Shown here piece by piece: positions 2,641-7,709 of a stretch of 21,821 nucleotides of DNA. The notes beneath the pieces were generated by a model. It had not been told where the DNA came from. It worked only from the letters and a program-made list of their open reading frames with translations, and ran no database searches. The position numbers and the translations under genes are program-made. Positions within the stretch are counted from its first letter, which is position 1. Each line of letters opens with the position of its first letter. The stretch spans positions 1 through 21,821 of the IMG/VR virus record IMGVR_UViG_3300037322_000362, one strand, 5' to 3'. This DNA is from a virus.

Positions 2641-3099
2641 GTGAATAGTTTTGCGCACGGAAATCCAATAAACCATTTAGTCAAAGACCTAGAAGACTCT
2701 AGAAGGTTTATAGACACTGGCTTAGCTATTAGGCTTAACGAGATAATAAAAGACGTGCTGCCCAGTAGAGGCCCTGCAGAAGAAGACGAAGAGTTCGGGG
2801 AATTTTCTATAACCAAAGCTCTTAAGAAACAAATGAAAACCTTGAAAAGGATTCAGGATGTTGCGGCTACGTCTGATGATGTGGGAGAGCTTAAAGCTGT
2901 GCTTACGGCATCAAGAGACATAATTACGCAGATGACTAAGCTAAAAGATATTGTGGACGCAGAGGGCGCGCTTAGAATAATAGAAGATTCCCTTGTTGAA
3001 TGCTTAGACGAACTTGGAGACGAAAAATTAAAAGAAAAGTTTCGAGAGCTCATCAACGCCAAGACCAAGCACGCAAAAGACCTAAAGAGGAATAGCTAA
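2641..3099 (+). CDS. Probable terminase small subunit
   Basis: This 152-residue protein starts at GTG with an excellent ribosome binding site (AAGGAG at 2629-2634, six bases before). It is almost entirely helical and highly charged, with an acidic patch around residues 46-54 and a basic C-terminus (KTKHAKDLKRNS). It directly precedes and overlaps the large terminase (TAATG), the standard place for the small subunit, which recognises the packaging site and stimulates the ATPase. The length fits the family. I see no clear helix-turn-helix, so the assignment rests on position, size and helical character. Confidence 0.6.
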   Translation: MNSFAHGNPINHLVKDLEDSRRFIDTGLAIRLNEIIKDVLPSRGPAEEDEEFGEFSITKALKKQMKTLKRIQDVAATSDDVGELKAVLTASRDIITQMTKLKDIVDAEGALRIIEDSLVECLDELGDEKLKEKFRELINAKTKHAKDLKRNS

Positions 3100-4847
3100 T
3101 GTCTACAGTCCTGCAGAGAGTACAGGACTCTGTACTGAGAATAAATGATAAGCTGATTAGGAACGCAGCTCTCCCAAACATACCTAATTGGATGATCGAA
3201 AACACCTACTTAAAAGGGAAAAGATGGAGCTTTAAGGACCACGAGTTTCAGATAGCGATTGCATCGGATACCTCTTCTCAAGTAGTAGTTAAGAAGTGTT
3301 CGCAGGTAGGGATTTCTGAGCTGGAAATCAGGTTCATCTTGGCCTTCCTGTACATTAAGCCGGGCCTGTCAGCGATCTACGTACTGCCTAGTAGAATCTT
3401 TGCGATGAAGTTTTCTAAGAGCCGGATCGACCCCGTGATTAAGGGGTCCCCGGAGCTAAGTAGAAGGCTGGTAAGCGGGGTGGACGGGGCCGAGCTTAAG
3501 CAAATAGGAGATTCCTTTCTTTACGTCGGCGGAGCAAACTCAGACTCTCAGGCCATTTCCATTCCTGCTGACCTTTTAGTAAGGGACGAGTACGACTTTG
3601 GAGATGAAACCGTACTTGGCAAGTACAGCTCAAGACTTAGACATGCCGAGAACGGAGGTCTTTCTAGAGACTTCAGTACCCCTACTGTGACTGGCTACGG
3701 AATTGACGCGCTCTACGACAATTCCAGCAAAGCTGACTACATGTGCAAGTGTGAGAAGTGCGGCACATGGCAAGCTCCTGACTTCCACAAGCTTGTAAGA
3801 ATTCCGGGATATGACGGGGAGTACTCGAAATTTACTTCTCTGGACGTATCTCGATATGACATTGAGGCGGCTATAGTAGCCTGCATGAAGTGTGGCACTG
3901 ATCTAGGCCCTTCTCTTTCTAACCCTAAAAACAGAGAGTGGGTACACAAACACCCAGGCAAAACAGTGTCCGGCTACTCAGTCTCTCCATTGGACGTTTA
4001 TGCCTACAACCATCCCCCTAGACTAATTGACCAGCTTAAGCTCTATCCGCTAAGATCAGACTACGAGAACTTCGTTATCGGGCAGACTCACAGCGATGAC
4101 ACTACAGAAGTTAACTTAGCTAGGGTAAAACAAACTACCGAAGGGTACGATGAAACTACAGGCGAAGGCTGTTCTTTAGGAATCGACGTTGGGCACGTTC
4201 TTTACGTCACTGTCGGCAAAGTGATAAACGGAAAAGACAACTTCATAGCAAAAATTGTCATAGACACTAGAGAGACTAACCCGATAGAAAAAATATCAGA
4301 GATAGTGAAGCAGTACGGAGTCAAGAATATAGCTATCGACTCTAACCCTGACCTTACTCTGGTGAGAAACTTAGTCGAGCGCTTCCAAGATGTAATACCA
4401 GTCTACCCCTGCAACTACGTGGAAGATTCTGGAAAAGACATAAACTTTGTTAGCGTGAATTCTAACGGAGTTGCTAACATAAAGAGGACTAAGGCTTTAG
4501 ACGAGCTTGTTTCCAGAATAAATAGTCTTCAGTGCGTATTCACAGACGGTCCCCACCGTGCTACAGTTCTGGAGCACTTCAAGGGAATGAAGAGAGTCAG
4601 AAAAAAGAACGATAAAGGAGAAGAAGTTGCTAGATGGGTTAAACTAAATAACTCAGATCACTTTTTCCATTCAACCCTTTATTGCTCTGTAGCCATGTAT
4701 CTCTTGGGAATTGACGACCAGACCACGAAAAACTCTTATCCAATAATTGCCCCAACTTTGGCAGAGATTGGCCTAGTAAACCAAAGTAGGAGTACTTCGG
4801 ATGCTTTCAGAGCTAAAGAAATGGTGGATTTCTTTGGGGTTAGGTAA
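3099..4847 (+). CDS. Terminase large subunit, GpA family
   Basis: This is the DNA-packaging motor ATPase and nuclease (582 residues, close to the usual length of lambda gpA-like proteins). The N-terminal ATPase domain shows an adenine-binding stretch around F45-Q51, a deviant Walker A (KKCSQVGISE, residues 65-74, with Gln and Val where the classical motif has Gly) and a Walker B ending LLVRDEYDF with D163 and E164. A zinc ribbon typical of this family has C218/C221 and C262/C265. The C-terminal nuclease domain has acidic residues at D363 (GIDVGH), D414 (IDSNPD) and D520 (NNSDHFFHS), as expected for an RNase H-like metal site. AGAGG at 3086-3090 is the ribosome binding site. The 3' end overlaps the next gene by 47 bases. 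It should act with the upstream small subunit at the portal. Confidence 0.93.
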   Translation: MSTVLQRVQDSVLRINDKLIRNAALPNIPNWMIENTYLKGKRWSFKDHEFQIAIASDTSSQVVVKKCSQVGISELEIRFILAFLYIKPGLSAIYVLPSRIFAMKFSKSRIDPVIKGSPELSRRLVSGVDGAELKQIGDSFLYVGGANSDSQAISIPADLLVRDEYDFGDETVLGKYSSRLRHAENGGLSRDFSTPTVTGYGIDALYDNSSKADYMCKCEKCGTWQAPDFHKLVRIPGYDGEYSKFTSLDVSRYDIEAAIVACMKCGTDLGPSLSNPKNREWVHKHPGKTVSGYSVSPLDVYAYNHPPRLIDQLKLYPLRSDYENFVIGQTHSDDTTEVNLARVKQTTEGYDETTGEGCSLGIDVGHVLYVTVGKVINGKDNFIAKIVIDTRETNPIEKISEIVKQYGVKNIAIDSNPDLTLVRNLVERFQDVIPVYPCNYVEDSGKDINFVSVNSNGVANIKRTKALDELVSRINSLQCVFTDGPHRATVLEHFKGMKRVRKKNDKGEEVARWVKLNNSDHFFHSTLYCSVAMYLLGIDDQTTKNSYPIIAPTLAEIGLVNQSRSTSDAFRAKEMVDFFGVR

Positions 4848-5343
4848 AACCAATTCTCTAGAGGGAAATAAAGTGGAAGACTTTGAACAAGCTAGCGGGA
4901 AATACGGAGACAGAACTCTAATAGTCTTGGAAAGATTCAAGTTTTCAAATCAAGGAACTTTAGGTAGACTTCTAGATAAAGATGGGGGTTCGTTTAGCGG
5001 CCTAGTGACACTTGAGCTTCCTTGGAAAGATAACGCTAGATCGGTGTCCTGTATCCCCAGAGGCAGCTACAAATGTTCTCCGGTAGTCTCTCCTAGGTTC
5101 GGAGATTGCTATCAAGTAGATGAAGTTCCGGGAAGAAGTCATATTCTGTTTCATCACGGAAATTTTGCAGGAGATAGGTCTTTAGGAATGAGAACAGACT
5201 CAAACGGCTGCATTCTCTTAGGGTACAAACATTCAAAGCTACAGGGCCAAGATGCAGTTTTGAGTTCTAGAGTAGCCAGAACTTTGTTTGAAAGCAGTCT
5301 TGATAACCAGTCATTCGTCTTAGAAATTAGGGAGAGAATCTAA
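4801..5343 (+). CDS. DUF5675-like protein, possible lysis enzyme
   Basis: This 180-residue protein matches my memory of the DUF5675 family, found in phages and prophages near lysis genes; the core starts around LIVLERFKFSNQGTLGRLL. A conserved-looking patch has H118, H119, G120 and N121 and, 16 residues further, SNGC with C137. The spacing of HG and (S)xGC resembles the YkuD L,D-transpeptidase active site, but the His of SHGC and the Arg after it are absent, so catalysis is unproven. The start is uncertain: ATG at 4801 has AGGAG at 4788-4792 and overlaps the terminase gene, whereas GTG at 4873 has GAGGG at 4861-4865 and would avoid the overlap. The holin-like gene follows with a one-base overlap, which supports a lysis role. 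No other endolysin candidate is visible in the window. Confidence 0.7.
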   Translation: MLSELKKWWISLGLGKTNSLEGNKVEDFEQASGKYGDRTLIVLERFKFSNQGTLGRLLDKDGGSFSGLVTLELPWKDNARSVSCIPRGSYKCSPVVSPRFGDCYQVDEVPGRSHILFHHGNFAGDRSLGMRTDSNGCILLGYKHSKLQGQDAVLSSRVARTLFESSLDNQSFVLEIRERI

Positions 5344-5861
5344 TGGCCGTAGGAGAGTACCTTACGTCTATTCTTGCTGGCGGGGCAACTGGTCTTTTAG
5401 GGACTGGTATTTCTAGAGTTTTCAGTTTCTTTGAGAACAAGCAAAAGTATAGACAGCAGCTTGAACTTCTCAGGATAAACCGAGAAGCTGCTAAAGAAGA
5501 GTCAGAGTACAGGTTGAAAGAAGCCGAGCTGTCAGGGAAGCTCAAGCTCTCCCAGATCGAGGAAGAGGGCCGGGCTGCGTCTGAGGCGGGTGCTAACCTA
5601 GCCCTAGGCAATAGCTACTTAGAAGCTGCTACGAGGTGGAGTGAGGGCAACAGCCCTTGGATGGTCTTTGTTGACGTGCTTCGAGGGGTTACTCGTCCCG
5701 GTTTGACTATCTTGCTTTGCCTTACAGCTTTTGTCATGTGGACCAGAACTGAGGATAAAGACCTTGAGAATCAGATTGTAATGACTTTCTTGTATCTCAA
5801 TACTTCTGCAGTTCTCTGGTGGTTTGGCAGCAGACCTTCTAGCTATAACAAAGTTAGGTGA
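5343..5861 (+). CDS. Holin-like membrane protein (3-TM type)
   Basis: This 172-residue protein has three hydrophobic segments: residues 6-30 (Gly/Ala-rich), 119-133 (PGLTILLCLTAFVMW) and about 145-161 (IVMTFLYLNTSAVLWWF). Between the first two is a charged helical, coiled-coil-like region (residues 31-80). The pattern of a VLRGVTRPGLT motif before a membrane helix and a WWFGSR ending is shared with phage proteins annotated as three-helix holins of the gene-transfer-agent type. It would permeabilise the inner membrane and time lysis. The start overlaps the upstream stop (TAATG), with AGGGAG at 5329-5334. The adjacent DUF5675-like and coiled-coil membrane proteins complete a plausible lysis block. 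Holin function is inferred from topology and context. Confidence 0.65.
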   Translation: MAVGEYLTSILAGGATGLLGTGISRVFSFFENKQKYRQQLELLRINREAAKEESEYRLKEAELSGKLKLSQIEEEGRAASEAGANLALGNSYLEAATRWSEGNSPWMVFVDVLRGVTRPGLTILLCLTAFVMWTRTEDKDLENQIVMTFLYLNTSAVLWWFGSRPSSYNKVR

Positions 5862-5864
5862 ACA

Positions 5865-6245
5865 ATGCTTAATTATCCTTTCATGCTGAAAAAAGGCCAG
5901 CGCAAGGCTAGACCTTCTGGAGATTTTCCCTTTTGTGTGGCAGAATACGTCCAAGAAATCGAGAAAACCGAGAAAACTGGGAATAGAGGTAAGCCTTACA
6001 TGTCTTTGAACACCGAAAACACAAATAGGCTAAACAGCACAAAGCTAGTAGAGGCTATGGTTATAGCCTTGCTTACTACTTTGCTTATTTACCTGCTCGC
6101 TATTCCTAAACTGGAAGAAAAGATAACTACGCTTTCTAAGGAAGTTGAAGGGGTCAAGCTTGAGGTAAGGGAGATTAGGTCCGACATATACGTACCTGCG
6201 CACAGGGCCGGTCCAAATAATAATAACAACGACGAGAAAAGGTAA
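5865..6245 (+). CDS. Small membrane/coiled-coil protein, lysis accessory?
   Basis: From ATG 5865 the product is 126 residues. The recognisable part is its second half: one strong membrane helix (AMVIALLTTLLIYLLAIP) followed by a coiled coil (KLEEKITTLSKEVEGVKLEV) and a polar Asn-rich tail (NNNNNDEKR). This is the shape of small phage lysis accessory proteins (XhlA-like or i-spanin-like). An alternative in-frame ATG at 6000 has AGAGGT at 5985-5990 and would give an 81-residue product of more usual size. The 45-residue extension is basic and polar and begins only three bases after the holin stop, with AGGTGA just upstream. Either start, or both, may be used. No lipobox or o-spanin-like partner is visible. 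Confidence 0.55.
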   Translation: MLNYPFMLKKGQRKARPSGDFPFCVAEYVQEIEKTEKTGNRGKPYMSLNTENTNRLNSTKLVEAMVIALLTTLLIYLLAIPKLEEKITTLSKEVEGVKLEVREIRSDIYVPAHRAGPNNNNNDEKR

Positions 6246-6251
6246 GTAACG

Positions 6252-7709
6252 ATGGCCGCTAAGTTACCAGATTTAAACATACCTCTTCCAAAGAGAGTTG
6301 CTACAGCGGCTAAAGCTTCTACGTTGCCGACAACTAACGCAGGGAACGGGGAACAGATATCCCGGTCATCTGCTTATTCTTTACTAAATAACTCTGTTGC
6401 CAACTACAGAAACGCTAGTAACGTAACTCAGCTAATCAGGCATTTTTGTAGGGCAGAAGGTTCCATATCTTCTGCCCTGCATTCCTTAGTCCAGGTGGCT
6501 AACAACACTTTTACCATAACCGCTTTCGACGCAAAGACTCACGAGTTTTCGGTTGAAGGGACCAAAGTGGCTGCTGCTATTAGAGCTTCTTTTGAAACTC
6601 TGTACGACTTTAACGCCGGATTTTCTACTAAGAAAAGCTTTGAAAGTCTCAATGCCCATCTTATAAGAGAAGCTGCTATTACTGGCGCGGTAGCCGCAGA
6701 GCTGGTAATTAACAAAGCTTTCGTTCCTGATAATATTAGCGTTGTTCCGTTTGAAAGCTTGAGACCAATGTCTAACGGCAAAGGTAGCTACTACTATGAC
6801 CAACTTGTCGCAGGAGGCGACGACATACCCTTAAACATTCCTAACTTCTTTGTTAGCTTTGTTCAGAGTGACGCAGGACAGCCTTTTGCTATTTCAATGT
6901 TTGAATCAGCCATTAAGCTTCTCTTAATGTTTGAAGAGTTTCTGGAAGACATTAGAAGAAGCATCAAAGTTTCTGGTCATTCTAGAACTATGGTTACTTT
7001 GGACTCAGGGAAAGTTGTAAGTACGGCGCCCGCAAACATAAAAGAAGACCCTGCAAAACTAAAGCTATACATGGAACAAGTCAGAGACGCGGTAGCCGCG
7101 CAGCTCCAAAGTCTGACCCCTGAGCAGGCCTTAGTTATGTTTGACTACGCTGAAGTAGAAGTTCTCAACTCCGGCCTAGGAACTAAAGTAGATTACACCC
7201 CTCTTCTTAGCGTCATAAGCGGCCTGTACGCAACTTCCATGAAGACGCCTCCCTCTGCTATAGGTTTGAGGCTGGAAGGTGGTTCGCAGGCTCTAGGCAA
7301 TGTTGAAAGCTTGATATTTCTTAAGGCTGCTGCAGCCCTGCAGACTCCGATAGAAGAAGTTTATAGCCGCATGCTGACTTTAGGGTGCAGAGTTCTGGGA
7401 TCAGACGTTTACGTAGAATTTAAGTTTGACACGATAAACTTAAGGCCTGCCGACGAACTTGAAGCTTTTAAGACTATGAAACAAACGAGAATTCTGGAAC
7501 TTCTCTCCCTTGGATTGTATTCTGACGACTACGCTGCACATCTTCTGGGCACGGGATTCCGGCCAGCAGGAGCGCCGGTTCTTTCTGGAACTATGTTTCA
7601 TTCTGGAGACGGCAATCAAGTTTCTTCGTTCCCCGGTGATACAGCTATGGGCAGAACTTTACAGCCCGACAAAGAAGTCCCAAGAAAAGGTGGAGGTAAG
7701 TCACAGTGA
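6252..7709 (+). CDS. Portal protein
   Basis: This 485-residue protein has the length and sequence character of a phage portal, the dodecameric ring at one capsid vertex through which DNA is packaged and ejected and to which terminase and connector proteins bind. It has a low-complexity N-terminus (about residues 1-40), then alpha/beta wing-like sequence with PFESLRPM near residue 170, a helical middle part (residues 210-300) and a C-terminal region with SMKTPPSAIGLRLEGGSQ (about residues 327-344), which is typical of portal proteins, followed by long helices. A polar, Lys-rich tail ends KEVPRKGGGKSQ. The ribosome binding site is AAAAGG at 6237-6242. Its stop codon overlaps the protease start (GTGA), as is common for portal-protease pairs. 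Its subfamily is not clear to me. Confidence 0.85.
   Translation: MAAKLPDLNIPLPKRVATAAKASTLPTTNAGNGEQISRSSAYSLLNNSVANYRNASNVTQLIRHFCRAEGSISSALHSLVQVANNTFTITAFDAKTHEFSVEGTKVAAAIRASFETLYDFNAGFSTKKSFESLNAHLIREAAITGAVAAELVINKAFVPDNISVVPFESLRPMSNGKGSYYYDQLVAGGDDIPLNIPNFFVSFVQSDAGQPFAISMFESAIKLLLMFEEFLEDIRRSIKVSGHSRTMVTLDSGKVVSTAPANIKEDPAKLKLYMEQVRDAVAAQLQSLTPEQALVMFDYAEVEVLNSGLGTKVDYTPLLSVISGLYATSMKTPPSAIGLRLEGGSQALGNVESLIFLKAAAALQTPIEEVYSRMLTLGCRVLGSDVYVEFKFDTINLRPADELEAFKTMKQTRILELLSLGLYSDDYAAHLLGTGFRPAGAPVLSGTMFHSGDGNQVSSFPGDTAMGRTLQPDKEVPRKGGGKSQ

Follow-up and report, generated by a model that had tools for sequence, protein, structure and literature searches.

The question raised by virus record IMGVR_UViG_3300037322_000362, a linear sequence of 21,821 bases (the window, which is the whole of the record), is what its small gene at positions 4801-5343 (+ strand) does. 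The gene encodes a 180-amino-acid (aa) protein that is a clear member of family DUF5675 (PF18925 over residues 43-167, E = 1.4e-24, 86.6 bits, above the curated Pfam cut-off of 26.7 bits; phrog_1501, E = 1.4e-23). Both libraries assign the family no function, and one is proposed here. An earlier note on this DNA had put the protein forward as a candidate peptidoglycan-acting enzyme related to the YkuD L,D-transpeptidases. Most likely, DUF5675 is a family of phage enzymes that cut the bacterial cell wall for host lysis. For the window gene we consider it probable that the product is an endolysin of YkuD fold, hydrolysing the bond between meso-diaminopimelic acid (mDAP) and D-alanine (D-Ala) and released by a holin-like partner. 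The predicted fold, the invariant residues, the lysis-cassette context and the replacement of known endolysins in related phages were computed, and from these we infer that the protein is active as an enzyme, that it hydrolyses rather than transpeptidates, which bond it cuts and that its partner releases it.

Structures were predicted with AlphaFold2 for the window protein (P0001; mean predicted local distance difference test score (pLDDT) 88.4, predicted template modelling score 0.79) and for a 132-aa relative containing THGC (L010; mean pLDDT 94.3). In the window protein about 38 N-terminal residues formed a low-confidence extension, the remainder being the domain. Both models were compared with solved structures using VIA-align 2, a re-alignment of Foldseek candidates. 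For the window protein, 10 of 10 among the matches listed were enzymes of the L,D-transpeptidase or L,D-carboxypeptidase fold, including Pgp2 (Z = 10.5, 118 residues, 2.4 Å), Csd6 (Z = 9.6) and DpaA (Z = 7.7). For L010, at least 47 of the 50 matches listed carry the YkuD fold; 42 were titled L,D-transpeptidase, Ldt or YkuD, and five more were Pgp2 (twice), Csd6, Tlde1a and DpaA, which were assigned to the L,D-transpeptidase/carboxypeptidase fold from the portions of the literature available. The fused amidase/peptidoglycan-binding protein 4xxt remained outside of this count, and Bd1075 and 1zat, also among the 50, are presumably of the same fold. L010 matched Bacillus subtilis YkuD with Z = 9.5 (4a1i) and 9.4 (1y7m), Tlde1a with Z = 8.4 (22% identity over 105 residues) and DpaA with Z = 7.8. 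The top matches, Pgp2 and Csd6, are L,D-carboxypeptidases according to the reference titles and so belong to the hydrolases; the differences in Z are too small to weigh. A sequence search for relatives of solved structure returned nothing usable. The YkuD-like fold suggested in the earlier note is thus supported by models of two family members.

The motifs on which that suggestion was based, H118-H119-G120-N121 and S134-N135-G136-C137, were present in the translated open reading frame (ORF) as described. Conservation was assessed in an alignment (A3) of 68 sequences from scans of viral and cellular contigs, with near-identical and short sequences removed. Six residues were invariant (68/68): S83, R112 (codon at 5134-5136, + strand), H118 in H-x-G-N (5152-5154, +), G136, C137 in SNGC (5209-5211, +) and S156. 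The larger scans used the pattern ELPWKDN or ELPWKDNA, so that the invariance of ELPWKDN is biased, at least in part; H118, C137, R112 and S156 are located outside of it. The conservation of H118 and C137 is more than chance. R112 and H118 were separated by 6 positions in all 68 members, and H118 and C137 by 11-12 positions in 50 and by 19-20 in 18. The expectation that both neighbouring histidines and C137 would be invariant held for H118 and C137 and failed for H119, which was His in 4/68 members and was rejected as the catalytic residue. The likely catalytic base is consequently H118, and the H119A variant suggested earlier would be the wrong mutant. C84 was also rejected as nucleophile (R, S or A in 4/68 members, R in phage SIO-2).

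The predicted base and nucleophile fell in register with those of YkuD when the A3 profile was aligned, in local mode, with 33 YkuD proteins from other genomes: H118 coincided with the YkuD His, and C137 with the catalytic Cys (E = 5.6e-4 in a single comparison; score 29.2 relative to 23.6 for the best shuffle, with 0 of 200 column shuffles reaching it). The 33 proteins were drawn from 45 loci, 12 of which were removed (7 not read in frame, and 5 outside the motif pattern). A previous profile comparison with 8 YkuD proteins had been weak (local E = 0.02-0.08, global mode also failing). As in YkuD proteins, a Gly precedes the predicted catalytic Cys, the pair G136-C137 being invariant, and a His lies upstream of it. 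The second His and the Arg of SHGCxR are missing, as the earlier note had recognised: the His of [S/T]HGC is N135 in the window protein, and the Arg two positions after the Cys (C+2), present in 22 of the 33 YkuD proteins (which had been selected with a motif pattern), was found in 0/68 members. This is no argument against the fold, because 2/68 members do have His at position 135 (THGC), 16/33 of the YkuD proteins compared lack the His before GC, and L131, another YkuD domain that scores above the Pfam cut-off and was one of the 5 removed, reads SNGC as does the window protein. In DpaA, which has this fold and is a hydrolase, Cys143 is followed two positions on by Ala145, so that Arg is likewise missing at C+2, according to the available text of its description (PMC10653827). 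For Tlde1a the residues R115, H121, H129 and C131 are named in the part of the paper available (PMC9638812), and the R-x5-H spacing of DUF5675 (R112/H118) is the same as that of R115/H121. The window protein itself gave no match to Pfam YkuD (PF03734) at E up to 1, and its score against Tlde1_dom (PF10908; 13.2 bits, E = 0.13) did not reach the curated cut-off of 30.1 bits. A search for Tlde1 in 199 genomes of one phylum gave 3 matches, the loci of which were not used.

Evidence for the role of the gene came from related phages, in which DUF5675 and known endolysins were found to interchange at one locus in two lineages. In the Mu-like Vibrio phage martha 12B12 a single gene separates DUF5675 from the late activator gene (Mor) ahead of it, and in the Mu-like phage ZX4290 DUF5675 follows the activator gene directly. 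In Vibrio phage 1.136.O the place of martha's DUF5675 gene is held by an endolysin with GH108 and PG_binding_3 domains (E = 1.2e-20), and the flanks of the two phages are nearly the same: Mor, ahead of the slot, shows 98.5% identity, and the four genes that follow the slot show 93, 99.5, 96 and 99%. For the gene lying between Mor and this slot, no recognisable relation was seen between the two phages (BLAST), and it may have been exchanged in the same block. By eye, the genes just before the lysin (L019:9181-9639 in martha and L122:2600-3052 in 1.136.O) both have a signal-peptide-like start, as if exchanged along with the endolysin. The positional counterpart, in 1.136.O, of martha's 152-aa gene before DUF5675 is labelled COG3926, which we take to be a lysozyme group; a lysin was looked for in this gene and rejected, neither the martha gene nor its counterpart having a Pfam match. 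The corresponding stretch ahead of the terminase genes holds a lysozyme or GH108 endolysin in Mu, MuM16-1 and HS6. The second exchange was seen among P2-like phages, where, in Vibrio phages 1.202.O and PV94, a holin gene and a gene annotated as endolysin lie between the DksA-like and tail chaperone genes; these endolysins are GH24-like (BLAST against Mu gp22, E = 8e-14 and 2e-12, respectively, in a three-sequence comparison). In B12_PE001 the same neighbours enclose DUF5675 and two genes that are membrane-like by eye. In yong1 the same slot holds a third, different gene (L181:2387-2884, 165 aa), annotated as RNA polymerase alpha subunit and by eye resembling a lytic transglycosylase. The swaps between martha and 1.136.O and between B12_PE001 and 1.202.O/PV94 indicate that, in two unrelated lineages, DUF5675 takes the place of known endolysins.

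The genes surrounding DUF5675 were counted at 62 loci in which DUF5675 was called as a gene of its own (76 loci minus 7 cellular contigs, 6 with the DUF5675 ORF uncalled and 1 fusion), a membrane ORF being defined by a hydropathy peak of at least 1.6. A membrane ORF was present within two genes on the same strand at 57 of the 62 loci, and membrane proteins made up 60, 39 and 21% of ORFs below 260 aa at distances 1, 2 and 3, respectively, and 12% at distances of 4 or more, figures which concern membrane genes as a class and not holin families. Pfam matches among the 95 membrane neighbours were GTA_holin_3TM (6), Phage_holin_4_1 (6), the LydA holin (1) and the Rz1-like LysC (1), and holin and Rz-like spanin families were also present among the PHROG matches (25 of 54 families listed, several matches per protein being possible). 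GTA_holin_3TM was likewise found in Salinibacter phage M8CC-19, three genes past DUF5675 (E = 3.1e-19). In L059:4995-5906 (identical in L060) a DUF5675 domain is followed in one frame by a GTA_holin_3TM-like domain (E = 2.3e-4, 22.1 bits, below the curated cut-off of 24.8); an ATG lies inside the ORF ahead of the holin part, and the ORF is possibly an endolysin-holin fusion. The family as a whole thus occurs in lysis cassettes with holin or spanin genes, the partner in the window being holin-like only.

In the window that partner is the next gene, at 5343-5861 (+ strand), whose ATG begins at 5343 and has one A in common with the DUF5675 stop codon at 5341-5343 (TAATG). The junction bears out the earlier claim that the gene is joined to a holin-like one; the holin-like status is our inference, and the product is best called a candidate holin. 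It has 172 aa, a coiled-coil-like middle and a hydrophobic C-terminal part, with a modest hydropathy peak (1.43), and its sole match was the unnamed family phrog_6637 (E = 9.3e-15), which also accounted for 7 of the 95 membrane neighbours counted at other DUF5675 loci. Homologues of the 172-aa protein are encoded immediately downstream of DUF5675 in SIO-2 (31%, 3.9e-14) and in Alteromonas phage V19 (25%, 1.1e-7).

Other enzymes that might explain lysis were searched for in the window and in DUF5675 phages. In agreement with the earlier note, a further murein hydrolase could not be recognised in any of 20 window proteins (10 searched against Pfam and PHROGs, 10 against PHROGs only), 7 of which matched nothing. 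Seventeen phage records with a tblastn match to the window protein were picked for variety (three titled partial; weak matches in cr10_1, E = 5e-4, and Dulem virus 260, E = 4e-4), and Phage_lysozyme, Amidase_2, GH108, M15_4, SLT, GH19 and M15_3 were each found in 0/17. The GH108 search did find the two of four comparison phages that carry GH108. A standard endolysin elsewhere, which would have spoken against the proposal, was therefore not found in 16 of the 17 records with these seven families and Hydrolase_2, the eight lysin families searched, which did not include CHAP or M23. Whole-phage scans of script-called ORFs (80-420 aa) revealed no lysin among all 24 Pfam families, other than DUF5675, in B12_PE001 (38 ORFs), among the 25 of 29 Pfam families listed in martha (35 ORFs), or among the 25 of 36 PHROGs listed in phi39:1 (28 ORFs).

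Taken as an endolysin, the protein could act as follows. It has no hydrophobic N-terminus (hydropathy maximum anywhere 0.40) and should therefore need a holin. A compact cysteine enzyme of this kind, with neither signal peptide nor membrane anchor, would gather in the cytoplasm late in infection until the holin-like product of the translationally joined gene opened the inner membrane and gave it access to the murein. There C137 would attack the peptide carbonyl, H118 serving as base; R112 would probably either hold the carboxylate of the stem peptide or help to form the site, and the acyl-enzyme would be resolved by water, as suggested by the absence, in all members compared, of the C+2 Arg of many transpeptidases. 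The expected cut is at meso-DAP(3)/D-Ala(4) of the stem peptide, which in a 4-3 cross-link would sever the cross-link. Hydrolysis of mDAP-D-Ala in 4-3 cross-links is favoured because such a cut is compatible with the fold and would also break down the wall; transpeptidase, carboxypeptidase and endopeptidase activities are all known among enzymes of the YkuD type, according to the available text of PMC12729407. The activity of the DUF5675 protein on peptidoglycan is predicted.

Several results weigh against this proposal. The local alignment with YkuD spans 25 columns and has a probability of 30%, and in global mode A3 and the 33 YkuD proteins gave a different register and no meaningful alignment (E = 0.5). 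Matches to PF03734 stayed below threshold (2/68 members at E up to 1, best 0.013), as did those to PF10908 (9/68, best 0.036). Foldseek against the PDB gave no significant match for either model (best E = 0.44 and 0.11), and the claim of fold accordingly rests on VIA-align, the two models and the residue register. Five of the 62 loci had no membrane ORF in reach, including two microviruses and the Mu-like ZX4290, and the window itself was scored through its second downstream ORF (5865-6245), the joined gene falling below the membrane threshold. The window is a 21.8-kb fragment, and its phage may carry another endolysin. The GH19 search gave no match anywhere, controls included, and is no evidence of absence; M8CC-19 has a Hydrolase_2 gene in addition to DUF5675 (1/17 records); and a weak lysin match could sit among the unlisted families of martha and phi39:1. 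Finally, an ORF of more than 2,400 codons on a 234-kb virus contig (L004:655-7965) joins DUF5675 to an SLT transglycosylase domain (E = 1.5e-10), its product probably being a virion protein, so that DUF5675 is not always an endolysin.

Three other functions were considered. The protein could be an active L,D-transpeptidase, or an enzyme that exchanges D-amino acids, and could weaken the wall by editing, in the manner of Tlde1, leaving cross-links uncut. The structural match to Tlde1a, the common R-x5-H spacing and the sub-threshold Tlde1_dom matches would all fit such an enzyme, which we nevertheless consider unlikely: the C+2 Arg of many transpeptidases is missing from the family, and rapid phage lysis normally requires cutting. 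The large ORF of L004 would instead fit a virion-associated or entry enzyme, opening the murein locally at DNA injection and not for lysis, as would members in two microviruses (4.8-5.0 kb) with no annotated holin and a weak match in a third (6.4 kb). Stand-alone small genes amid membrane, holin and spanin genes were the rule in the loci examined, however, and the gene occupies the endolysin slot in two lineages, which makes a general entry function improbable. Least probable of all is an accessory enzyme resembling DpaA, which would aid outer-membrane rupture by lipoprotein detachment or stem-peptide editing next to another, main endolysin: DpaA is among the structural matches of both models and likewise has no Arg at C+2, but DUF5675 lies at the endolysin place of relatives in martha and B12_PE001, no other canonical lysin was found in B12_PE001 or among the families listed for martha, and the hosts include Bacteroidota such as Cellulophaga, in which, to our knowledge, Braun-type lipoprotein linkage is not expected.

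An endolysin of YkuD fold thus remains the preferred reading for the window gene. Extended to the whole family, it would make DUF5675 proteins L,D-endopeptidase endolysins that cut mDAP-D-Ala of cross-links as the main lysis enzyme of diverse phages (Mu-like, P2-like, marine siphoviruses, podoviruses, 5-kb microviruses and perhaps crAss-like phages); in our judgement the case for this wider statement is evenly balanced. DUF5675 is encoded in circular microvirus genomes of 5.0 and 4.8 kb, with a weak match in one of 6.4 kb (L022, L023, L121), and a murein hydrolase has been demonstrated in another microvirus, Ebor, according to the available text of PMC11980548.

A Shine-Dalgarno-like AGGAG lies 8 nucleotides 5' of the DUF5675 start, which is overlapped by the end of the terminase large subunit gene (3099-4847). 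The ORF at 5865-6245 (+ strand) encodes one strong transmembrane segment (hydropathy peak 2.41) followed by a charged tail and had no Pfam or PHROG match; speculatively, its product might be a second lysis membrane protein, such as a second holin, or an inner spanin. A simple pattern search of 4800-6400 (+ strand) detected no lipoprotein-type outer spanin ORF. Genes for the portal, an S49 protease, the major head protein and the tape measure follow 3' of these genes. The contig start (1-74) consists of GC-rich degenerate GGGCAG repeats and might be an assembly artefact.

Part of this proposal has a precedent. A 2022 paper on phage Mu lysis proposed by synteny an endolysin in Martha 12B12, soluble and with weak HHpred similarity to L,D-transpeptidase (PMC9239132, available text), which by its place fits the DUF5675 gene VPCG_00031. 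The endolysin idea is therefore not new for one phage; the available part of that paper gives it one sentence, counts it as a class, and contains no DUF5675 name, fold or conservation analysis. The present analysis contributes the fold across the family, the invariant residues, the pair of slot swaps, the statistics on the cassettes and the connection with DUF5675. Among crAss-like phages, record labels read 'transpeptidase catalytic domain protein' (cr10_1) and 'L,D-carboxypeptidase/transpeptidase' (cr116_1), and a literature search found no source for such annotation. In the literature searched, DUF5675 was mentioned in two papers, where it is called a hypothetical or DUF5675 domain-containing protein, and most DUF5675 rows listed in phage records are annotated as hypothetical protein, including those of phages studied for aquaculture therapy. 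A testable function is thereby offered for a family with tblastn matches (E up to 1e-3) in 145 of 50,697 phage records, of which 98 are from Vibrio phages. From the proposal it follows which active-site mutants ought to be inactive, and phrog_6637 is predicted, by association, to act as a holin. If true, it would turn a fold known mainly for building and trimming the wall into a natural wall-breaking tool, and would add a bond specificity barely represented in PhaLP, a database of phage lytic proteins with 10 YkuD-class entries in the part of the source available.

Compared with known systems, DUF5675 resembles the YkuD-fold enzymes (YkuD, Csd6, Pgp2 and DpaA) in predicted fold, in the register of His and Cys and in the Cys following Gly, and differs from them in lacking a significant Pfam YkuD match and the C+2 Arg, in the rarity of His before GC (2/68) and in the short spacing from H to C (11-12 in 50/68). 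With the Tlde1 domain (PF10908) it has in common the R-x5-H and GC arrangement and the structural match to Tlde1a, at a Pfam score far below the cut-off; Tlde1a is described in the available text as a secreted effector of bacterial competition (PMC9638812), unlike a phage lysis gene. The endolysins of the Mu gp22, GH108 and HP1 types occupy the same genome stretch as DUF5675 and presumably play the same role, but they cut glycan and belong to other Pfam families.

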